From positions 1 through 64,000 of the forward strand of contig NZ_BAKF01000012.1 of NCBI RefSeq assembly GCF_000614025.1: a DNA stretch of 64,000 nucleotides, read 5' to 3'. Source of the DNA: Prevotella aurantiaca JCM 15754 (GTDB lineage: Bacteria > Bacteroidota > Bacteroidia > Bacteroidales > Bacteroidaceae). The translations under genes and the position numbers were made by a program. Numbering within the stretch: position 1 is the first letter of the stretch; the number at the start of each line of letters is the position of its first letter. Below, piece after piece: positions 88 through 9,141 of the stretch. The notes under the pieces are model-generated. The model searched no databases, was not told where the DNA came from, and saw only the letters and a program-made list of their open reading frames with translations.

Positions 88-134
88 CAGAAAATTTGCT
101 TTAAAATTAGTACCTTTGCATTAGTAAACACGAT
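88..134 (+). repeat. Degenerate solo CRISPR-like repeat (R0)
   Basis: The central part matches the array repeat (CTTTAAAATTAGTA then CCTTTGCATTAG), while the first ten and last few bases are diverged. Aligning the TACCTTTG box at 111-118 to repeat position 24 places the unit at 88-134. It is followed by a 29-base gap and a second repeat copy, which is exactly the spacing of the intact array. Confidence 0.6.
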
Positions 135-163: not shown

Positions 164-210
164 GTTGTGATTAACTTTAAAAATAGTACCTTTGCATTAG
201 TAAACATAAC
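164..210 (+). repeat. Full-length degenerate CRISPR repeat acting as promoter (R1)
   Basis: This 47-base unit starts GTTGTGATTAACTTT and ends AAACATAAC, differing from the array consensus at only a few positions. It keeps TTG at 165-167 and the -7 element TACCTTTG at 187-194, 19 bases apart, so it is a plausible Bacteroidetes promoter with a start near 201. The next feature is the coiled-coil gene at 250. Confidence 0.75.
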
Positions 211-249
211 ATTAGAGGATTATAATAATAATCAAAATACACATTGAAA

Positions 250-759
250 ATGGAAGAGAAAGAACCTAAATTGCACATATTAAACTCTCAAATGCTTTCC
301 AAAGACCAAAAAAGGCTTTTTTGGGCTGAAAGAACCATCGAAAAGTTTAAGGAGTATGATAAAAAACGAACTGAATATGTGCACAAACTCGAGCAGAATT
401 ATCAGACGTTGAGAAAAAGATATGAAGAGCTTGAAGAAGAACTTTATGGAGATGATAAAGAGGCTTTATCAAAGAGAGAGAAAACAAGAAATAAAAAGAT
501 TGAAGAATACAATAGAATAATGCGTGGGGAGCATGCCTTACAAGTCATGCAAAAGAAATATATGATTGATGGAGAATACACAGATGAATTTCGTGCTTTT
601 CTTAGTGATTTTAAAGCTGCTATGGCAAAAGAGTTCCGCGACCATCTTATAGAGAAGAACAAGAAGCTAACACGTAACAACGAGAGTTTGTTATGTGAAT
701 TAGTAAAATACAGAATGCGTATCAAAGAGTTGGAAGAAAAATGCAATAATAGTAAATAA
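250..759 (+). CDS. Coiled-coil protein of unknown function
   Basis: A 169-residue, highly charged protein starting MEEKEPKLH. I chose ATG 250 over the in-frame TTG at 244. Residues about 25-75 and 130-165 look like heptad-rich coiled coils (runs of Glu, Lys, Leu, e.g. LEQNYQTLRKRYEELEEEL), linked by a less charged segment around YMIDGEYTDEFRAF. There is no signal peptide or membrane segment, so it is probably cytoplasmic. I do not recognise the family. It lies 40 bases downstream of a degenerate CRISPR repeat that retains promoter elements, and 44 bases upstream of a small membrane-protein gene with which it could be co-transcribed. It could be a phage-related or regulatory protein; the sequence alone does not decide. 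Confidence 0.7.
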   Translation: MEEKEPKLHILNSQMLSKDQKRLFWAERTIEKFKEYDKKRTEYVHKLEQNYQTLRKRYEELEEELYGDDKEALSKREKTRNKKIEEYNRIMRGEHALQVMQKKYMIDGEYTDEFRAFLSDFKAAMAKEFRDHLIEKNKKLTRNNESLLCELVKYRMRIKELEEKCNNSK

Positions 760-768
760 ATAATTATT

Positions 769-791
769 GGCTTTACATTAGCAAACACAAC
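769..791 (+). repeat. CRISPR repeat remnant with internal deletion (R2)
   Basis: GGCTTTACATTAGCAAACAC plus AAC joins the left part of the repeat (GCTTT) to its right part (CATTAGCAAACACAAC). About 15 bases holding the -7 promoter element are missing. The repeat has two CTTT tetranucleotides flanking the missing part, so slippage between them explains the deletion. Confidence 0.65.
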
Positions 792-803
792 TGTATATTA
801 ATT

Positions 804-962
804 ATGTCAATTTATGAAATTTTCTTTTTCTTGATATCGCTTGTCCTTATGCCTTTCTTTACACATGGTGAGCCTTGGTATGTAAAGTTGTTCTTTTTAG
901 GACTATCTATGCTCTTTACCCCAATAATAGGTATACCATTATACAGATATTTTGCAAAGTAA
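804..962 (+). CDS. Small two-helix membrane protein, 52 aa (copy 1)
   Basis: ATG 804 opens a 52-residue frame starting MSIYEIFFFL and ending IPLYRYFAK. Two hydrophobic segments (residues about 4-19 and 27-46) flank a short polar loop THGEPWYVK, which predicts a two-pass inner-membrane protein. It aligns without gaps to the protein at 1288 with about 28 of 52 residues identical, including MPF-T-G-P, VK, LGL and FTPIIGI. That conservation makes both frames very likely real. The ATG lies 12 bases after a CRISPR repeat remnant, and the stop codon lies inside the next repeat copy. Size and hydrophobicity resemble type I toxins or phage-defence effectors, but the function is unknown. Confidence 0.75.
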   Translation: MSIYEIFFFLISLVLMPFFTHGEPWYVKLFFLGLSMLFTPIIGIPLYRYFAK

Positions 963-1002
963 TTAGCTTTAAAATTAGTATCTTTGCATTAGCAAACACA
1001 AC
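956..1002 (+). repeat. Solo CRISPR repeat, 5' end altered (R3)
   Basis: From position 963 onward (ATTAGCTTTAAAATTAG and TATCTTTGCATTAGCAAAC) this copy is identical to the array repeat through ACACAAC. Only its first six bases differ, and there it overlaps the TAA stop of the upstream 52-residue protein. The -7 element TATCTTTG at 979-986 is intact, but the TTG at -33 is lost. Confidence 0.85.
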
Positions 1003-1011
1003 TCAATATAA

Positions 1012-1118
1012 GAAAATAAAATAGGGGCAACGAAGCCCCTAAGTAGATTGGCGAAGGAGTTGAACCTTGCAATATGCAGCCTTTCGGGTGCCTCGCTACC
1101 GATGCGACCATCAATCTA
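1012..1118 (-). ncRNA. Structured tRNA-like small RNA with terminator
   Basis: The minus strand from 1118 reads TAGATTGATGGTCGCATCGG. It folds into a closing stem TAGATTG/CAATCTA (1118-1112 with 1050-1044), a TCGC/GCGA stem with an ATCGGTA loop like a tRNA D arm, a GCA-CC-GAAA-GG-TGC hairpin, and an AAGG/CCTT stem with loop TTCAACT like a T arm. A G+C-rich hairpin (AGGGGC/GCCCCT, 1040-1023) followed by a U-rich run forms a terminator. A complete promoter starts transcription almost exactly at 1118. The anticodon arm has only a 6-base loop and several mismatches, so this is not a normal tRNA. It may be a tRNA-derived sRNA or a decayed tRNA. Confidence 0.6.
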
Positions 1119-1123
1119 TAATG

Positions 1124-1155
1124 CAAATATAAAGATAATATTCGATAAACGCAAA
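1124..1155 (-). promoter_or_regulatory. Promoter of the minus-strand small RNA
   Basis: On the minus strand, TTTG (1155-1152) is followed after 20 bases by TATATTTG (1131-1124). This fits the Bacteroidetes consensus and predicts a start near 1117, at the first base of the folded RNA. Confidence 0.7.
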
Positions 1156-1184
1156 TTATAAACGTTAAAAGTTATGGCAAATCC

Positions 1185-1231
1185 GTTATGATTAGCTTTA
1201 AAATTAGTATCTTTGCATTAGCAAACAGAAC
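1185..1231 (+). repeat. Full-length solo CRISPR repeat (R4)
   Basis: A 47-base unit with only two differences from the array consensus (GTTATG at the start instead of GTTGTG, and CAGAAC at the end instead of CACAAC). The -7 element TATCTTTG is at 1208-1215. It precedes the second 52-residue membrane protein gene. A second -7-like TATCTTTG occurs just downstream at 1239-1246. Confidence 0.9.
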
Positions 1232-1287
1232 TATTTATTATCTTTGCTTTCATAATAAAAATAAGACTTTTAAAAACAAGAACAGGT

Positions 1288-1446
1288 ATGTTGATAATCG
1301 AAACTATTTCATTCCTTATAACCCTCCTTGCAATGCCCTTTGTTACTCGTGGCACGCCGTTTCTTGTAAAATGTATCTACTTGGGGCTTTGCTGTTGTTT
1401 TACTCCTATAATAGGAATTTCCCTTTACAAACATCTAATGAAATAA
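1288..1446 (+). CDS. Small two-helix membrane protein, 52 aa (copy 2)
   Basis: ATG 1288 opens a 52-residue frame starting MLIIETISFLITLLAMPF and ending ISLYKHLMK. It has two hydrophobic segments (residues about 2-19 and 27-47) and the conserved core MPFVTRGTP, LVK, LGL and FTPIIGI shared with the protein encoded at 804. The two are the same length and about 54 percent identical, so they are diverged paralogues. A longer overlapping frame exists here, but only this frame shows the conserved relation. The gene is 56 bases downstream of a nearly perfect CRISPR repeat that carries a promoter. I cannot name the family; a membrane effector or toxin is one possibility. Confidence 0.75.
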   Translation: MLIIETISFLITLLAMPFVTRGTPFLVKCIYLGLCCCFTPIIGISLYKHLMK

Positions 1447-1471
1447 TATCCATCATTAGGAAAAACTGTCC

Positions 1472-1502
1472 TTTGCACTAATACTGTCTGTTATTATATT
1501 TG
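1472..1502 (+). promoter_or_regulatory. Promoter of the truncated phage-like gene
   Basis: TTTG (1472-1475), 19 bases, then TATATTTG (1495-1502), with the ATG at 1519. This is a complete consensus promoter not derived from the CRISPR repeat. Confidence 0.7.
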
Positions 1503-1518
1503 CACTTAAAAGGTAAAT

Positions 1519-1803
1519 ATGGTAACAGAAAGTCTTATTCATAAGAAATTTGTTCACGACACTCTCCATCAGGGTATCTCTAAAATATATACTACGCAAG
1601 AAAGCGTTGTACGTAGCAATTATCAGATTCGCTCGGGGCGTCTTCTAACGTCCCTTTCTAAACATTCTTCTAATACAAGTATTTCGGGCGAATCTTATAC
1701 CATTTTCGTACGGATTCTGCCTTATCTTCGCTTCTTAGATATGGCATATCGTCTACGAAATGACCGTATAGCCAAGCACAAACGGTGCAACCTTGCACTT
1801 TAG
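1519..1803 (+). pseudogene. 3'-truncated phage/mobile-element-like protein
   Basis: A 94-residue frame starting MVTESLIHKKFVHDTLHQGI, preceded by a full promoter. The pattern (helical start, an ISKIYTTQES-VVRSNYQIRSG-L segment, then VRILPYLRFLDMAYRLRNDR) reminds me of small proteins found in Bacteroidales prophages and mobile elements, which I recall being about 30 residues longer with an LYNR motif and more after this point. Here the frame runs into the CRISPR array, and its stop TAG is formed by two bases of unique sequence plus the first G of repeat 1. I infer that the 3' end was lost when the array and this gene were joined. The family assignment is from memory and uncertain. Confidence 0.5.
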
Positions 1804-2460
1804 TTGTGATTAGCTTTAAATTAGTATCTTTGCATTAGCAAACACAACACAGATTTGGGGTTACAGAAAGCCGCAGCAGTTGTGATTAGCTTTAAAATTA
1901 GTATCTTTGCATTAGCAAACACAACGAACGAACGTGAAGAGAAAGATCTGCGCATGTTGTGATTAGCTTTAAAATTAGTATCTTTGCATTAGCAAACACA
2001 ACCCACTCTGTATCTGCTATATAGTTACCGCCGTTGTGATTAGCTTTAAAATTAGTATCTTTGCATTAGCAAACACAACCGCATCTTTACTACCATTAGA
2101 AATACCGAGTTGTGATTAGCTTTAAAATTAGTATCTTTGCATTAGCAAACACAACTCAATATCAACGCCATATTTATCAGAATAGTTGTGATTAGCTTTA
2201 AAATTAGTATCTTTGCATTAGCAAACACAACTAAATTAGGGTCTACCGCTGCAGGGCTTAGTTGTGATTAGCTTTAAAATTAGTATCTTTGCATTAGCAA
2301 ACACAACTATCAATACATCTTCGAAGAGGTCGTACAGTTGTGATTAGCTTTAAAATTAGTATCTTTGCATTAGCAAACACAACAACTGCTAACTTTACGG
2401 TTGTTTCATTCTCGTTGTGATTAGCTTTAAAATTAGTATCTTTGCATTAGCAAACACAAC
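1803..2460 (+). CRISPR. Type II-C CRISPR array, 9 repeats and 8 spacers
   Basis: Nine copies of a 47-base repeat (starts GTTGTGATTAGCTTTAAAAT, ends CATTAGCAAACACAAC) begin at 1803, 1879, 1956, 2033, 2109, 2185, 2261, 2337 and 2414. Spacers are 29 or 30 bases. Repeats 2-9 are identical; repeat 1 is 46 bases because one A is missing. The tracrRNA anti-repeat at 8124-8150 pairs with the 5' half of the repeat, so crRNAs are read from the plus strand. Each repeat contains TTG (positions 2-4), 19 bases and TATCTTTG (positions 24-31), a full promoter predicted to start transcription near repeat position 37-40, just ahead of each spacer. Confidence 0.98.
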
Positions 2461-2529
2461 TCAACAGGCATAAAGCAATGATATTCAGCATCATTACGAA
2501 GGTTTAGAGAGAAAGAAAAATGCAAGAAA

Positions 2530-2564
2530 AATAAAGTTCCATTCTCAATGAATGGAACTTTATT
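2530..2564. terminator. Bidirectional terminator between array and cas2
   Basis: A perfect 15-bp stem (AATAAAGTTCCATTC, loop TCAAT, and its complement) flanked by A and T runs lies between the convergent CRISPR array and cas2. It can end transcripts from both sides. Confidence 0.8.
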
Positions 2565-2579
2565 GTTTCTAACAGAGGG

Positions 2580-2918
2580 CTAAAAGAGTTCTAATTGTAC
2601 TCCTGGCGCATTGGGGCGTTGTGGTTTCTTACCATAAAATAACTTTATTTCTTCGAATTGTTTATCTGTTATTCCCATAATTCCAACTTTTCCGTACGTT
2701 GGAATAAAGGTAGAAACTCTTTTTATATGCACTTCCATATTTTCTTTACTACCACAGTGGCGTATATAAATAGAGAACTGAAACATTGTAAACCCATCTT
2801 TTAATAGGTTCTGACGAAAGAGAGTAGCAGCCTTTCGTTCTTTCTTTGTATCTGTGGGTAAATCAAAAAACACCATTAACCACATGCTTCTATATTGACT
2901 AAACCTATATTGTTCCAC
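2580..2918 (-). CDS. cas2: CRISPR-associated endonuclease Cas2
   Basis: A 112-residue Cas2. The ferredoxin-like core opens with the hallmark strand MWLMVFFDLPTDTKKERK, whose Asp (FFDLP) is the conserved metal-site residue. It continues through FTMFQFSIYIRHC and ends with the C-terminal strand GVQLELF. Cas2 forms the dimer that bridges two Cas1 dimers in the spacer-integration complex. The gene follows cas1 with a 9-base gap, is the last gene of the cas9-cas1-cas2 operon, and is followed by the bidirectional terminator. The length is typical of type II Cas2 (about 100-115 residues). Confidence 0.95.
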   Translation of the reverse strand: MEQYRFSQYRSMWLMVFFDLPTDTKKERKAATLFRQNLLKDGFTMFQFSIYIRHCGSKENMEVHIKRVSTFIPTYGKVGIMGITDKQFEEIKLFYGKKPQRPNAPGVQLELF

Positions 2919-2927
2919 TCATTTGCA

Positions 2928-3860
2928 TTATAATTCTGGATAAGCCATTCTTCTTAATTCGCCATTGAAGCACTTGTAAAGCGAAGAGGTTGTTTGTTGT
3001 GTAGCTATCATCAATGGACTTTTCTTGTTTCCAATTGTTGTATCGAGCACTGGAATAGCAAGTAGTTTCATCTTTATTTCTTTAGTTAGTTCGCTATAAT
3101 CGTTCGTTGAAGCCATTACATCTAACACTAATCCATCGACGTAAGGGCGATAAGGTTCCATTACATCATCGGCAAGACAATAAGCATTATACTTATTATG
3201 GTGGTGAATGCCTAAAGTTGGAAGCAATCCGCTGGCAACTAAAGACCGTGCTACTACTGCACGCAATATAGCATAACCATAATTTAAAAGATTATTAGGA
3301 GGTTCTCCTTCACGACCTCTTATGAAATTAGGAATATCAGAAAAAACATTTTTCCAATAATATGCGGCTGCTCTTGCCTCAAGATTATCAGGATCGCCAC
3401 TCCTAACCTTATCAGCCCAAACGTACATACAACCAGTATCAACCTTAGTATATCTTTCTAAGAGTTTAGCTTGATTGCATATTTTCTGCTTAATGGTTTG
3501 TTGCCATAATTGTTTTTTAAGTGGTAACGATGCTTCTATTTGCGTGCGAAAACGTTCGCTTTGTAGTGTATTACTGCATAAAGGAAGCAAAAGTCCAATG
3601 GGCATATTCTTGCTATCGCAGGTAATTACTGCACAGTTATTTTCTATTAAAGCTTCTAATGCTGAAGAAGTAATGGTTATTCTTTTGTTATCGAGCAGTA
3701 CAACTCCAATATCTTCTATTGGAATTGTACGCTCGGTTTGCTTTTTAAAACCATCAGACAAATTACTGCAAGTCTCTACTTCTGGCAAACGAATTACCAG
3801 CTGCGCATTCTGCAAACTCAAATATGCAGGATTACTGAAACATAATGTTTTCTTTATCAT
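2928..3860 (-). CDS. cas1: CRISPR-associated integrase Cas1
   Basis: A 310-residue type II Cas1, the catalytic subunit of the spacer integrase. The N-terminal beta domain (about residues 1-80, starting MIKKTLCFSNPAYLSL) is followed by the helical catalytic domain. Visible signatures are EARAAAYYWKNVF near residue 150 (catalytic Glu), NLLNYGYAILRAVVAR, GIHHHNKYNAYCLADDVMEP (catalytic His and Asp) and FNGELRRMAYPEL at the end. It sits 12 bases downstream of cas9 and 9 bases upstream of cas2, in the order typical of II-C loci without csn2 or cas4. All catalytic motifs look intact, so the locus should be capable of acquiring spacers. Confidence 0.96.
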   Translation of the reverse strand: MIKKTLCFSNPAYLSLQNAQLVIRLPEVETCSNLSDGFKKQTERTIPIEDIGVVLLDNKRITITSSALEALIENNCAVITCDSKNMPIGLLLPLCSNTLQSERFRTQIEASLPLKKQLWQQTIKQKICNQAKLLERYTKVDTGCMYVWADKVRSGDPDNLEARAAAYYWKNVFSDIPNFIRGREGEPPNNLLNYGYAILRAVVARSLVASGLLPTLGIHHHNKYNAYCLADDVMEPYRPYVDGLVLDVMASTNDYSELTKEIKMKLLAIPVLDTTIGNKKSPLMIATQQTTSSLYKCFNGELRRMAYPEL

Positions 3861-3872
3861 AGATTCAGAATA

Positions 3873-6800
3873 TTAATCGTATTCTCCTATTGCCACTATT
3901 TTGCCAATAGCATTGATGCGCACCTTTACAATACCTTTTAAGTGTGGTAAAGATTTTAATTGTTTGTATGTAATACCCTTAAGATTTGGAATTCTTTCTA
4001 CTGTTGTTTCTAAATGATGTCTAAAAAGATAATCACGGATAATAGACTTGTCATAGATAATTTTAGAAATTGTTTGAACTCTGTATAGATTTGGACTTAT
4101 CATGTCATAATTGGCTTCGTCCATTAAATTCACTTCGGTAGGAATAAATCCTGTCGCTTCATTAGGGAACACGAAGTATTCGTTTTGCTTCATTGTAAAT
4201 AAAAAACTCCAACCTTTATCGTGATTATAGTTTTTGTCAACAATAGGAATTCCTTGCGATTTACGTTCTGCAGCTTCGAAGAAAGAAACGGCATTATCTT
4301 GTAGATTGCCATCTTCGTCGTAATAGAAAGCGATATGATGGTTGTTACTTGTTTGTACATAATTACCTAATACAGGTTTTCCATCTTTTCCAATAATAAG
4401 TTTACCTGCTTGATCTTTCAGTGTATGTAATGGAATGGCACTTAAAACTCCTTCTATGCTAACTCGTTTTAATGCTATTTTCTTTGCTTCGTCGATATAA
4501 ATAGGGTTCTCATCTAAATTACTGAATGCTTTCTTTGCATCTCCATTAAATTTTGCTAAGCGGGCTTTCAGAATTTTTCGTATACCTTTATCTATTACTT
4601 TTTCTATTTTAAGATCTGGTGTAATTGGTTTACGAATTGGGTGGTAAGTTTCCCATTCTACAGTTTTAACTAATGCAGGTAGAACTTTTGTCTTTTCTTC
4701 ATTTAGATATATTGGATTCTTTTCCAAACTATTCTTTCCTGCAAAAGCCTTTTTCGCATCACCATTGTATTCAGCGAGGCGTTTTAGAAGAGCTTCGCGA
4801 ATAGTAAGATTGCTTATTTTGTTTATCGTTGCTTCATCTAATGCTGCTCCAACTTTCACCATTGTTATAATAGGACGTTTCTTTGTTCCATAAATTGTTT
4901 CGTTATGAAGTGCTCCACGTGGTGTAAGTTGAATCTTTTTTATTACTCCCTGTTTGGTTTTAATCTTGTTTACATTCTGTGTCATCACCTTATTTTTTGC
5001 CTTAATTGATATTAAGATGGCACTAAGATGGCGTTTTGCTTCTGCACGAAATTCGTGAATAGGGATTGGAGCATTAAACTTTAGCTTATTATCCTCTCTG
5101 TGTAACTCTTTATTTTCTATTGCATAGATGCTATTGCTCTTATTGCTTCGTGCATTAAGATTGTTTAGATACTGAATGAAAGCGGGTTTTGTAAAAGCGA
5201 TTGTCAAGGCATCCATTGCATGATGACGGTGGTCGTTTCGTTTTGTCCAATCTTTTATGCGTTTAATTTTCCTTCCGTCTCTATCTTCTACAATATCTGC
5301 TAAACCAAGTTTTTGGTACTTTTCAAAGTTCAGCTCCTTCATCACGTCTACCAATTGCCAATCTTCACGCAGACGATTGGTTACTTCTCCGGTTGTTGGT
5401 GTAACAGTTTTTACAAGTTCGCCCAATATTTCGCATGCTTTCTTCGCTATGTATTGTGTATTGCGAAGGTCTCGTTCGATGAATTCAGAAGGGATATCGG
5501 CTTCTTTCATCAATAGTTTGTTGTATTTTGCTCTGCTTATAACTTCTTTTGACAAAAGTATATCAAGTTTCTTTTTATAAGCTTCAGCACCTTCGGTACC
5601 ATATTTTTCCTGGACGAAATCGAATGCTGTTTTATTACTCTTTGCAAGGTTTATATCGCGTGCTTCAAGAGTTTTATTTGAGAAAGAGTCGTCGAAAAGA
5701 CGTGCCTTTGGAATGATATGCTCGACATCGAAGTCTTTAGAGAATAGTTTTTCTTTAGAAATATATGTATCAGAGTATAATGTCTTAAAGCCATTTGCTT
5801 CAAGTTCTTGATATAGTTTATACTTTATAATGTCGTTACGGCTGATGTATGAAAGCGCAAAATCTCTTTCCAAAATTTCACGAATACGTTGATTTTCAGC
5901 ATTAGCTTGGCTAATTGCACGTGTTGCTTTCTCTCTTTCTGCAGCACTACTCTTTAATTCGCGTGCCATTTCTATCCTGATTTCGTCAGGCTTTCCGTAT
6001 TCATCAATAATTGTATTGATGACATTTATCATCTGATTGAGGATTTTCTCGACAACAGGATTGCGCAAACTATTCTTTGGTAACAGTTCTAATCTTTCTT
6101 TATAAATCTTCTGGTCTAACTCTTCTTTCGTAAGTGAGCGACGTGAATGTTTATATCCAGCATATGCACAAGCCTGACTATAGTCGTTTCCTACTTCAAG
6201 ATAAGGTAATATTTTGCGCATTGCTTTCACACTGAGATTACTATAATCGTCCTCAAAAACAACATCACAAAGTACAGTTGCATACTCTTTTGGAAAACCA
6301 AAATCAATTTCTAACTTTCTTAGAAGTGCTTCGTTACCTGTTCTTGAGTTATCGCTTTCGTAAGAATATAGTAAATGCCACAACATATACATAGGTTGTT
6401 TTTCCAACTCATGCTTCACTAATGATGGATTAAAGTCAAGAATATCGGTATTAAAACCTAAGTTTTTAAAAATTGTTGTAACGTGATGACGGATCTCGGA
6501 AGCTTGTAACTTCTTGAAATCACACTCTTCACGACCAGTTAAAGAAATAATTTTGTTATAGCAATCAAAAAGAATAGCTTGTGTACGATTGCCTTCTACT
6601 TCCTTATAGTTAAGGTCCCATTGCTTACCTTTTTTATTAAGTATTTTCAACACATCGGTTTTACTTAGCTTTACCTTTACACTTAATTCTTGATATAGCA
6701 AGTTTCTTTCTTTCTCATCGAGTGAATGTTTTTCATTCGTATCGTTATTTATAAGTAAAATATTATTGATATTTTGCCAAATTCTAAATTCTTGGAATAC

Positions 6801-8012
6801 AGGAGAAGACTTTGGTGCTACCTTTGGACCTATGGTTATTTCTTTTTCCTTACCATCAATTGTTACTTTTACTTTGCGTTGCTCCAATTCGCAAACAGAG
6901 ATAAGTCCTTTCTTGCTCTTCAATGGGCGTTGATAAAAGATGATAATATCTCTTATTTCGTGCTTCAGTTCTGGTGTTAGCTGCTTATGGAAAGCGGCTT
7001 GCGTTTCCCAAAGCTTCTCAAATTCATCCAAGTAATCTTGTCGATAAAAAGGTTTACTCTTTATGCTGATATGTGGGTTTTTTAGCGAAGCCCAAAGATA
7101 TTGACCAACTGTCTGTTTGTTAAAAAAGAGTTCTTTACTTCTGTCACTGATAGCACCGAGATAACCACTTGTATTTGCTATATGACCTTTTAAATCGCTG
7201 ATAACAAAGGCTAAAATTTCTTTGCTAACTTGTTGTTTTAATGCCTCAATTCTCCATTTTAAAGGTTGCAATTTTCTGTCTAAACCTTTTAAGTCAGCAG
7301 AATAAATTCCATATTTAGCAAGGAAAATTTTGTTTGTATTAACTTTGGTTTTACCTTCTAATTGTTGTTTAAACTCGTCTGTAAGTATCTCTGGATAATA
7401 CTTTTTCTGCTCGTTCCATATTCTTTCAAGTTCAGCAATTAAGTCGGAACGATAGTAATCTTGAGCAAATTTCTTACCTTTACTAAGCAATTGGAAAGAA
7501 TATTCTGCAGGAGTAAGATGCTCTTCGTAGAGTTTCTTTGCTATAGTCATGCCATCAAAAAGCTGTCCTTCTTCCTTATTGTTTGCTTTACGATTACTTT
7601 TATAGCCACGCTTTTTATTCAACATAAATAATACACGGGCAAATTCGTGAAGCGAAATCTTTTCTTCTGCAGCCTTTGCTCGTAGCTTATAGGTTTCAAA
7701 AGTAGTTCCTTTACCTTCCTCGTACAACGCTTCGTTAGATAACCAACCTTGATCTTGTAGAAGATTGCGAAGGTTTTGTCTACGAAGTTTATAGCGTTGA
7801 AGATTTATTCTTGCACCATGACGTTGCTGTCTATCCGAATTGGTTGTGATAGCCTTACCTTTTTCGAAGTTGCTTTTTTCATCTACGGTTAATGGATTAA
7901 CCCTTACCCCAAGTCGAATAATCGAAGATGATTCATTATCGTTGTCAGCTTCATTCACTAAAGCCCATCCTATACTTGTGGTTCCTAAGTCTAAACCTAA
8001 TATTTTTCTCAT
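3873..8012 (-). CDS. cas9: Type II-C CRISPR RNA-guided nuclease Cas9
   Basis: A 1,379-residue Cas9. RuvC-I is at the start (MRKILGLDLGTTSIGWAL, Asp8). An arginine-rich bridge helix follows near residue 65 (RHGARINLQRYKLRRQNLR). RuvC-II (EIRIEMARE) lies near 676, the HNH domain near 760 (FDVEHIIPKARLFDDS, with the catalytic His), and RuvC-III (HRHHAMDALTIAF) near 929. All nuclease residues appear intact. The C-terminal part contains two related segments around residues 1075-1110 and 1147-1180 (each with NGDAKKAF and ENPIY or KNPIY). The size and the lack of csn2 or cas4 place it with the large Bacteroidetes II-C enzymes. The tracrRNA gene diverges from it about 115 bases upstream. With tracrRNA and crRNA it cuts double-stranded DNA next to a PAM that I cannot infer here. 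Confidence 0.98.
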   Translation of the reverse strand: MRKILGLDLGTTSIGWALVNEADNDNESSSIIRLGVRVNPLTVDEKSNFEKGKAITTNSDRQQRHGARINLQRYKLRRQNLRNLLQDQGWLSNEALYEEGKGTTFETYKLRAKAAEEKISLHEFARVLFMLNKKRGYKSNRKANNKEEGQLFDGMTIAKKLYEEHLTPAEYSFQLLSKGKKFAQDYYRSDLIAELERIWNEQKKYYPEILTDEFKQQLEGKTKVNTNKIFLAKYGIYSADLKGLDRKLQPLKWRIEALKQQVSKEILAFVISDLKGHIANTSGYLGAISDRSKELFFNKQTVGQYLWASLKNPHISIKSKPFYRQDYLDEFEKLWETQAAFHKQLTPELKHEIRDIIIFYQRPLKSKKGLISVCELEQRKVKVTIDGKEKEITIGPKVAPKSSPVFQEFRIWQNINNILLINNDTNEKHSLDEKERNLLYQELSVKVKLSKTDVLKILNKKGKQWDLNYKEVEGNRTQAILFDCYNKIISLTGREECDFKKLQASEIRHHVTTIFKNLGFNTDILDFNPSLVKHELEKQPMYMLWHLLYSYESDNSRTGNEALLRKLEIDFGFPKEYATVLCDVVFEDDYSNLSVKAMRKILPYLEVGNDYSQACAYAGYKHSRRSLTKEELDQKIYKERLELLPKNSLRNPVVEKILNQMINVINTIIDEYGKPDEIRIEMARELKSSAAEREKATRAISQANAENQRIREILERDFALSYISRNDIIKYKLYQELEANGFKTLYSDTYISKEKLFSKDFDVEHIIPKARLFDDSFSNKTLEARDINLAKSNKTAFDFVQEKYGTEGAEAYKKKLDILLSKEVISRAKYNKLLMKEADIPSEFIERDLRNTQYIAKKACEILGELVKTVTPTTGEVTNRLREDWQLVDVMKELNFEKYQKLGLADIVEDRDGRKIKRIKDWTKRNDHRHHAMDALTIAFTKPAFIQYLNNLNARSNKSNSIYAIENKELHREDNKLKFNAPIPIHEFRAEAKRHLSAILISIKAKNKVMTQNVNKIKTKQGVIKKIQLTPRGALHNETIYGTKKRPIITMVKVGAALDEATINKISNLTIREALLKRLAEYNGDAKKAFAGKNSLEKNPIYLNEEKTKVLPALVKTVEWETYHPIRKPITPDLKIEKVIDKGIRKILKARLAKFNGDAKKAFSNLDENPIYIDEAKKIALKRVSIEGVLSAIPLHTLKDQAGKLIIGKDGKPVLGNYVQTSNNHHIAFYYDEDGNLQDNAVSFFEAAERKSQGIPIVDKNYNHDKGWSFLFTMKQNEYFVFPNEATGFIPTEVNLMDEANYDMISPNLYRVQTISKIIYDKSIIRDYLFRHHLETTVERIPNLKGITYKQLKSLPHLKGIVKVRINAIGKIVAIGEYD

Positions 8013-8092: not shown

Positions 8093-8123
8093 TTGCATAT
8101 TGTTTTAGAAAGCTATATCTTTG
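8093..8123 (+). promoter_or_regulatory. tracrRNA promoter
   Basis: TTG (8093-8095), 20 bases and TATCTTTG (8116-8123) form a consensus Bacteroidetes promoter. Its -7 element is identical to the one embedded in every CRISPR repeat. Confidence 0.8.
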
Positions 8124-8125
8124 CA

Positions 8126-8208
8126 ATACTAATTTTAAAGCAAATCACAATAAGGATTTTTCCGTTGTGAAGACATTAGGTTGCCTCGTCCTTAACGGGG
8201 CTTTTTTT
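8126..8208 (+). ncRNA. tracrRNA
   Basis: The anti-repeat at 8124-8150 (GCAATACTAATTTTAAAGC then AAATCACAA) is complementary to the 5' half of the CRISPR repeat with a small bulge. Next comes a stem around CACAA...TTGTG (8146-8169), then a G+C-rich hairpin GCCTCG...CGGGGC (8183-8201) followed by seven T, a rho-independent terminator. The RNA is thus about 80 bases, transcribed away from cas9. It pairs with pre-crRNA and anchors the guide in Cas9; in II-C systems RNase III normally trims the duplex. Confidence 0.88.
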
Positions 8209-8720: not shown

Positions 8721-8742
8721 ATTGAATCTAAGGAGAGAAACG

Positions 8743-9141
8743 ATGGAAGTATCTAAACAGGAACTTGAGGCCGTCATAGTTCTATCGCCAGAAAAACGTT
8801 ATGACTATTTCGTAAAAAAAATATGCGATTGGGAAAAGGTATGGACGCTATATGAAGACGACTATATTGTGCTAAACGAAGCTAAGAACGGAAAGTTATA
8901 TGTGCTATTGTTTCCGTTTAAAGACTTTGCTAAGCACTATGCAACAAACACAAGAGACATGAAAGGTGTCTCATATAAAAGTTTTGAGCTTTGCGAATTC
9001 CTTGAGACGATTGTAAAGAAACTGCAAATGAACAAGGTTAACCATGCTTTGATTTTTCCAGTTGCTGATGGTTATGGACTGAATGTATCAATGGAAGATA
9101 TGGTTAAGGACATTCAAAGCGAAATGGAGAACTACAAATAA
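8743..9141 (+). CDS. DUF2750 family protein
   Basis: A 132-residue protein. ATG 8743 is chosen because AGGAGA lies at 8731-8736, one of the few clear ribosome-binding sites in the window. The family pattern is easy to see: residues 5-30 SPEKRYDYFVKKICDWEKVW, then LYEDDYIVL, LYVLLFPFKDFAKHYA, FELCEFLETIVKKL and a final HALIFPVADGYGLNVSMEDMVKDI. DUF2750 proteins are small soluble proteins of unknown biochemical function that often occur in immunity gene clusters. It lies 22 bases after the 118-residue gene and 5 bases before a broken SUKH gene, probably one operon. Confidence 0.8.
   Translation: MEVSKQELEAVIVLSPEKRYDYFVKKICDWEKVWTLYEDDYIVLNEAKNGKLYVLLFPFKDFAKHYATNTRDMKGVSYKSFELCEFLETIVKKLQMNKVNHALIFPVADGYGLNVSMEDMVKDIQSEMENYK

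Follow-up and report, generated by a model that had tools for sequence, protein, structure and literature searches.

The repeats of a type II-C CRISPR array in Prevotella aurantiaca JCM 15754 carry the -7 element of Bacteroidetes promoters, oriented to read into the spacers, and this element is conserved among type II-C repeats of the Bacteroidota far beyond chance. We consider it probable that each repeat serves as a sigma-ABfr-type promoter for a transcript comprising a spacer and the next repeat, which would pair with the tracrRNA and receive its 3' end from RNase III and Cas9, with no need of a leader promoter. The conserved -7 box, its orientation, the anti-repeat and the side of the PAM can be read directly in the DNA, and from them we infer transcription, its start site and processing.

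The type II-C locus

The window, meaning the whole 64-kb stretch of DNA that was analyzed, takes up positions 1-64000 of a contig 64,188 bases long. It contains a type II-C locus in which cas9, cas1 and cas2 follow one another on the minus strand (8012 to 2580), with the array after them:

1803..2460, plus strand: CRISPR array, nine 47-nt repeats and eight 29-30-nt spacers
2461..2579, strand not assigned: leader region between array and cas2, with a terminator-like inverted repeat (2527-2544 / 2550-2567)
2580..2918, minus strand: cas2 (PF09827, E 1.2e-16)
2928..3860, minus strand: cas1 (PF01867, E 5.6e-28)
3873..8012, minus strand: cas9, 1379 aa, with RuvC_III and HNH_4

The array is thus adjoined by cas1, cas2 and a cas9 with both RuvC and HNH domains, and the closest named relatives of this Cas9 are those of P. 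falsenii, Phocaeicola oris, P. histicola, P. vespertina and P. disiens. There is no csn2 or cas4 in the immediate neighbourhood of the locus, and no open reading frame of at least 80 aa between cas2 and the array. The P. histicola and P. disiens records also contain arrays close to this one. By eye, the leader region resembles the same region of L042, which is the sister array of the window array. On the other side of cas9 stand two open reading frames, one encoding a DUF2750 protein and one without a Pfam family; the DUF2750 gene (8722-9141) adjoins the tracrRNA region.

Proposed promoter elements within the repeats

The sequence-only reading had held that every repeat contains a full promoter, with TTG at repeat positions 2-4 and TATCTTTG at positions 24-31, 19 bases apart. 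In an array whose repeats (consensus GTTGTGATTAGCTTTAAAATTAGTATCTTTGCATTAGCAAACACAAC) start 76-77 bases apart, this arrangement is exact in eight of the nine copies, the gap in the first (1803) being 18 because one A is absent:

1804..1833, plus strand: putative internal promoter of the first repeat (gap 18, as one A is absent)
1880..1909, plus strand: putative internal promoter of the second repeat, TTG-N19-TATCTTTG
1957, 2034, 2110, 2186, 2262, 2338 and 2415, plus strand: further copies of TTG-N19-TATCTTTG

The two halves of the proposed promoter fared differently. All nine repeats have TATCTTTG, in agreement with the Bacteroidetes consensus TAnnTTTG, which lies around -7 in B. theta promoters (PMC7366714, as far as the available text goes). 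At the other end, repeat positions 1-4 read GTTG rather than the TTTG found near -33 of sigma-ABfr promoters, and this GTTG recurs in 69/69 repeats; since all 69 collected II-C repeats begin GTTGT, the -33 TTG is weak evidence and not independent, and it was rejected as promoter evidence because it belongs to the conserved repeat 5' end. Treating the nine repeats as nine independent promoter matches was likewise rejected, the repeats being copies. A search of the 64 kb for TTG-N19-TANNTTTG returned 12 matches where 1.78 were expected (sd 1.19; maximum 4 in 100 shuffles), a count that overstates the evidence since eight of the 12 are copies of one repeat.

In the rest of the window, TAnnTTTG occurs upstream of 23 open reading frames 12 times in the sense direction (2.45/kb) and eight times in antisense (1.64/kb, also rather high), compared with 0.50/kb per strand in coding DNA; given the AT-rich background, this upstream enrichment is modest support. 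The gene for tRNA-Glu (45337-45263, minus strand) is preceded by TACCTTTGC at 45364-45356, 18 bases before the gene.

Conservation of the -7 box among Bacteroidota repeats

The comparison of II-C repeat consensus sequences proposed in the sequence-only reading bore out the conservation of TAnnTTTG. The repeats came from arrays next to Cas9 relatives at genus, order and phylum level; 72 consensus sequences gave 69 distinct oriented repeats after one shortened duplicate was removed and near-identical variants were trimmed and merged, with the L060 array (short consensus) and the L086 array outside the set. The exact box lies at positions 20-30 in 52 of these 69 repeats, and in 63 when one mismatch is allowed, against means of 0.72 (maximum 4 in 300) and 9.5, respectively, in shuffles of the repeat from position 15 to its end that kept dinucleotides. 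Among the 52, the box starts at position 24 in 31 repeats, at 23 in 12, at 25 in four and at 26-28 in five together. On the opposite strand TAnnTTTG is found in 1/69. The element is therefore real, in the right orientation and shared well past this one array.

Clustering at 80% identity left 38 representatives, of which 24 have the exact box (shuffle mean 0.55, maximum 3 of 300). An earlier position-by-position calculation of bits had used 24 representatives chosen for having the box, and it was repeated on the unselected 38. In that alignment the box shows T in 31/37, A in 31/37, T in 36/37, T in 33/37, T in 32/37 and G in 28/36, while the three columns after the box drop to 13/36, 15/31 and 7/25 and the columns before it are intermediate. 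As conservation falls directly past the box, inheritance of the whole repeat does not explain it. By origin, the exact box occurs in 2/11 repeats of the phylum-wide set and 50/58 of the rest, and with up to one mismatch in 9/11 and 54/58. In a rumen group (L065-L070), CATCTTTG, CGTCTTTG or a similar sequence stands where others have TATCTTTG, which offers a natural test of the -7 box. As controls, nine distinct repeats of Cas5-adjacent arrays from this order, a small set with several GC-rich members, had the box in 0/9 on either strand.

tracrRNA, guide strand and PAM

A predicted tracrRNA, with promoter-like and terminator-like flanks around an anti-repeat, lies upstream of cas9:

8093..8123, plus strand: putative tracrRNA promoter, TTG at 8093-8095 and TATCTTTG at 8116-8123
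8126..8150, plus strand: tracrRNA anti-repeat, complementary to repeat positions 2-26 (96%)
about 8180-8207: terminator-like hairpin and T run after the anti-repeat (by eye)

Seen by eye, promoter and anti-repeat (8093-8150) look like an inverted copy of the repeat in which a -7 box has arisen in the opposite direction. The anti-repeat pairs with plus-strand RNA, the strand that the repeat promoter reads. For all seven L042 spacers with a target, NNYTTY stands 3' of the protospacer on the promoter-sense strand; these targets lie in other Prevotella-like genomes or phage contigs with 0-3 mismatches, and from them the PAM of the window's Cas9 clade was deduced as 3' NNYTTY. The single other target, of a spacer of the L044 array (Cas9 79% identical), is without a NNYTTY PAM, and L234 and L235, two weak target matches, had none when up to four substitutions were allowed. 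The strand, the side of the PAM and the anti-repeat all agree with transcription through each spacer.

Complements of the repeat were sought in 74 II-C loci, which amount to about 73 genomes since L044 and L081 are apparently one. The first listing was limited to complements starting at or before position 4 and ending at or before 32, and a later one was free of both limits. In 50/74 loci a complement begins at repeat position 2-3 and ends at 14-27, so that TTTG at positions 28-31 is not kept in place by this pairing. The search was for near-exact DNA complements, with G-U or bulged pairing outside its scope, and in these terms 15/74 loci had none. Five shorter complements reaching past 27 (L049, L058, L073, L178, L201) look like chance. 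In the remote II-C locus L205, an 18-nt stretch (6496-6513) is perfectly complementary to repeat positions 18-35; it is possibly an unusual anti-repeat and would cover the box if it belongs to a tracrRNA.

A predicted transcription unit for each spacer

With a host promoter element inside the repeat and reading into the spacer, polymerase carrying the primary sigma factor would start near the repeat 3' end. The rule that the box lies around -7 predicts a start at about position 35-40, thus before the spacer, where the sequence-only reading had put it at 37-40. From there polymerase would copy what is left of the repeat, then the spacer and one further repeat or more. The tracrRNA, whose gene is upstream of cas9, would bind the 5' portion of the following repeat, after which RNase III and Cas9 would generate the crRNA 3' end, steps taken from other type II systems. 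Each spacer would in this way have a local start of its own and no need of a leader promoter. As the transcript would begin with about 8-13 nt of repeat ahead of the spacer, removal of these 5' nucleotides may still be required.

The repeats of Campylobacter jejuni are 36 nt long. Its II-C system, like that of N. meningitidis, has only cas9-cas1-cas2, a tracrRNA, a promoter in each repeat and a separate start for each spacer unit, an organization that is predicted for the window array (PMC3656092, in the portions available); Neisseria is also named for repeat-internal promoters in PMC5006608. In C. jejuni an extended -10 box stands at the repeat 3' end, and starts from each repeat were measured inside the spacer, at position 5 (PMC3656092), whereas the window array has a sigma-ABfr -7 box in the middle of a 47-nt repeat. 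The sequence-only reading had each spacer transcribed separately with little upstream repeat, a claim that the predicted repeat tail of about 8-13 nt does not fully support.

That reading had also presented the arrangement as a Bacteroidetes version of Neisseria-type promoters, which holds for the -7 box, but repeat promoters had already been proposed for Bacteroidota II-C arrays on the TTG alone. For Flavobacterium columnare, a TTG 33 bp upstream of each spacer was reported together with eight array reads (PMC8092290), and for F. psychrophilum the same TTG argument was made, with RNA-seq of the array (PMC10309648). These systems are like the window array in phylum, in the proposal of a repeat-encoded promoter and in transcription towards the leader, which is predicted for the window; in the text available from both papers only TTG is named, and the repeat -7 box and its conservation do not appear. 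A B. fragilis CRISPR study describes 47-nt II-C repeats and makes no promoter claim in its accessible part. Among the open PMC papers searched, we found no claim of TAnnTTTG in II-C repeats. A repeat-internal promoter is accordingly of a known kind, of which the conserved sigma-ABfr -7 box is a variant, and the first reading is confirmed as to what it observed and, in its interpretation, partly supported and for the greater part right.

It is unlikely that one precursor starts outside the array, for example at a phage-gene promoter (TTG-N19-TATATTTG at 1473-1502, on the array strand) reading in, while the repeat box is weak or idle. One Riemerella study does favour a leader promoter, having found none in the II-C repeats with a general promoter predictor (PMC5006608, available portions), but the box is strongly conserved as an island, the leader lies at the downstream end for the array strand, and the F. 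columnare RNA-seq, with only the eight array reads, shows transcription towards the leader (PMC8092290). We find it very improbable that TAnnTTTG is kept for repeat recognition by Cas1-Cas2 or for binding of Cas9 and tracrRNA and only looks like a promoter. Cas1-Cas2 do recognise repeats, the spacing of the box from the repeat 5' end is nearly constant (23-24 in 43/52) and the possible L205 anti-repeat covers the box; yet the bases are the phylum's own promoter consensus, sense outnumbers antisense by 52/69 to 1/69, the anti-repeat from position 2-3 stops by 27 in 50/74 loci, and the II-C repeats of C. jejuni carry instead a sigma-70-type box of their own phylum (PMC3656092, in the text available).

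Degenerate repeats and inserts upstream of the array

Bases 1-2460 contain 13 occurrences of a 24-base core of the repeat (up to 3 mismatches); the only other occurrence in the genome has 3 mismatches. Ahead of the array come five degenerate or partial repeats (aligned at 88, 164, 745, 956 and 1185); apart from the first two, neighbouring ones are separated by inserts:

88..134, plus strand: degenerate repeat, first six bases lost, TACCTTTG kept
164..210, plus strand: degenerate repeat with a complete TTG-N19-TACCTTTG, starting 76 bases after the previous repeat
211..770, plus strand: insert A, one gene (250-759) with a homologue in G010 (39% aa)
771..791, plus strand: partial repeat, last 21 bases, -7 box lost
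792..961, plus strand: insert B, gene 804-961, whose small product looks membrane-like by eye
962..1002, plus strand: repeat minus its first six bases, otherwise perfect
1003..1184, minus strand: insert T, by eye a tRNA-like RNA gene; TATATTTGC precedes it at 1131-1123, and it has a terminator-like hairpin
1185..1231, plus strand: nearly complete orphan repeat (45 of 47)
1232..1802, plus strand: insert C-D, phage tail-region DNA (571 bp) that stops exactly at the repeat on either side

Insert C-D holds a gene for a small membrane-like protein (about 1290-1445) and a truncated phage gene (1519-1802). Of 34 loci compared (phage, prophage and other), 25 match it, several loci overlapping the same genomes; the match ends exactly at 1802 in 18 of the 25, earlier in the others and later in none. 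All 14 displayed loci agree in the last two bases before this junction and continue past it with TAACCG or CAACCG (12) or TAATAG (2), where the window has a repeat. As the phage match stops at 1802, the gene at 1519 represents the first 94 codons of a longer phage gene, which has 130 codons in L091. In G203 (two copies) the match begins exactly at 1232, and this exact left edge was not found in IMG/VR. Insert C-D has no transposase-like open reading frame, and its phage homology reaches both edges.

The DNA of insert B is similar to phage and prophage loci L108, L109 and L122. The small membrane-like proteins of 804-961 and about 1290-1445 are paralogous (52% identical), and in related loci similar DNA adjoins a phage tail-region gene. 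None of genes A to D has a Pfam family. Gene A gave one weak match in PHROGs (E 0.011) and nothing in phages or IMG/VR, gene D gave nothing in plasmids, and insert T nothing in phages; the tRNA-like gene of insert T was unrecognised by ARAGORN and Rfam, with a fold z-score of -1.71. When the window spacers were searched against phages, the matches listed had E 0.7 or worse.

Long inserts in other II-C loci

Across the surveyed loci, 1,512 of 1,539 neighbouring repeat pairs are at most 45 bases apart, four are 46-100 apart and 23 more than 100. Between two good repeats there are nine inserts free of N, of 182-2282 bp, in 7/74 loci: two each in the window and L173, and one each in L049, L075, L155, L172 and L180. 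In L170 a 116-bp gap consists of N alone and was left out of the count. The remaining listed inserts have a partial repeat on at least one side, and one of them, in L042, has a transposase-like gene.

Three genomes have phage genes that break off at the edge of a repeat. Both L173 inserts lie mid-array between perfect repeats; one is open from end to end over 385 codons, and the other opens, two bases from the repeat, with YVQKS, which aligned to the same five residues at position 259 of a microvirus VP4 (27% identity within the alignment). In L172, only the first part of a phage tail-completion protein (210 residues) is present, its alignment (30% identity) reaching the residue that directly precedes the repeat, and in L180 a 497-codon frame runs to the repeat. 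In four of the nine inserts (window 1003-1184, L049, L075, L155) homology revealed no cut gene. Whole genes within inserts encode RhuM (L049), an AAA/DUF4143 protein (L083), HicA (L075), and RelE and BRO-N (L058), and the L189 insert has a ParE-like gene below the cut-off.

Some insert proteins recur. L155 (9165-8857) and L172 (8617-8333), whose arrays belong to different families, have related small insert proteins (51% identical over 95 aa), the one in L155 without a Pfam family. ATPase genes between partial repeats in L179 (8234-9367) and L180 (12591-13724) are 86% identical, with a further relative (62%) at L083 14260-15375. DNA searches for donors of the L173 inserts found none in plasmids; for the first of these inserts, phages and 60 genomes yielded no donor, one of the searches giving only the insert itself and two short matches. 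Two insert proteins had nothing in IMG/VR.

Origin of the long inserts

The phage and gene fragments bounded by repeats are very probably real. Because standard array finders limit how long a spacer may be, spacers of kilobase size could have escaped notice, and the open PMC papers searched described none. Spacer integration would leave phage DNA that ends precisely at repeats, and, tentatively, Bacteroidota II-C arrays may sometimes take up hundreds to thousands of bp of foreign DNA as giant spacers, through Cas1-Cas2 and with exact duplication of the repeat. As nearly every repeat has a forward promoter, a captured segment would get a ready-made one, making the array slightly integron-like and able to express genes as well as guides. 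For the 571-bp insert, the 3' phage flank (TAACCG/CAACCG 12, TAATAG 2, n=14) is unlike NNYTTY, and the reversed 5' flank (AGTTTTG, from G203) fits it, with a chance of about 3% per end. In vitro, S. pyogenes Cas1-Cas2 without Cas9 took spacers consistent with unprocessed substrates (PMC8034620), an integration of untrimmed prespacers for which the available part of that paper reports neither hundreds of bp nor natural arrays.

Rather doubtful is a homologous recombination in which two array spacers with protospacers in one phage had the intervening array replaced by phage DNA. It would give exact repeat boundaries without a length limit, and L042 spacers match loci of the same phage family as 1232-1802 (L109, L112, L122), but the ends of 1232-1802 lack NNYTTY for two forward 30-nt spacers, both in the bases after 1261 and in the phage bases after 1802. 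Ordinary insertion of mobile DNA, or assembly error at the repeats, may possibly explain the long inserts, given the transposase-like gene inside an L042 repeat, the toxin genes between repeats in L058 (RelE), L075 (HicA) and perhaps L189 (ParE, below the cut-off), and the mostly draft state of the genomes concerned. Against either, foreign homology ends at the repeat edge in three genomes; the repeats flanking the window inserts are distinct variants, which argues against mis-joining of identical copies, and L049 lies in a 3.45-Mb contig.

Two other candidates were set aside. Insertion of an IS as the general cause was rejected, as L042 is the only case among the inserts examined. RNA anti-CRISPRs (Racr) are solitary repeat units in phages (PMC10651486, as far as its available text goes) and share with the window solitary CRISPR repeats beside phage genes; this or another phage-borne origin of the repeats was rejected, with no repeat at the right-hand junction in 14/14 displayed loci and 0 IMG/VR stretches.

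Implications

If the inserts are products of Cas1-Cas2, they would bear on how the integrase measures DNA and would then matter more. As for the promoters in the repeats, their operation would mean that crRNA is produced in a large part of the Bacteroidota without a leader promoter, that the expression of a spacer is independent of its age, and that transcription constrains the repeats in a way visible in their sequence. Repeats of 47 nt would then leave a 5' tail, and the 36-nt repeats of L193, L194 and L205, with boxes that deviate by one base, would have their starts close to the spacer; this would make repeat length a testable part of crRNA maturation.
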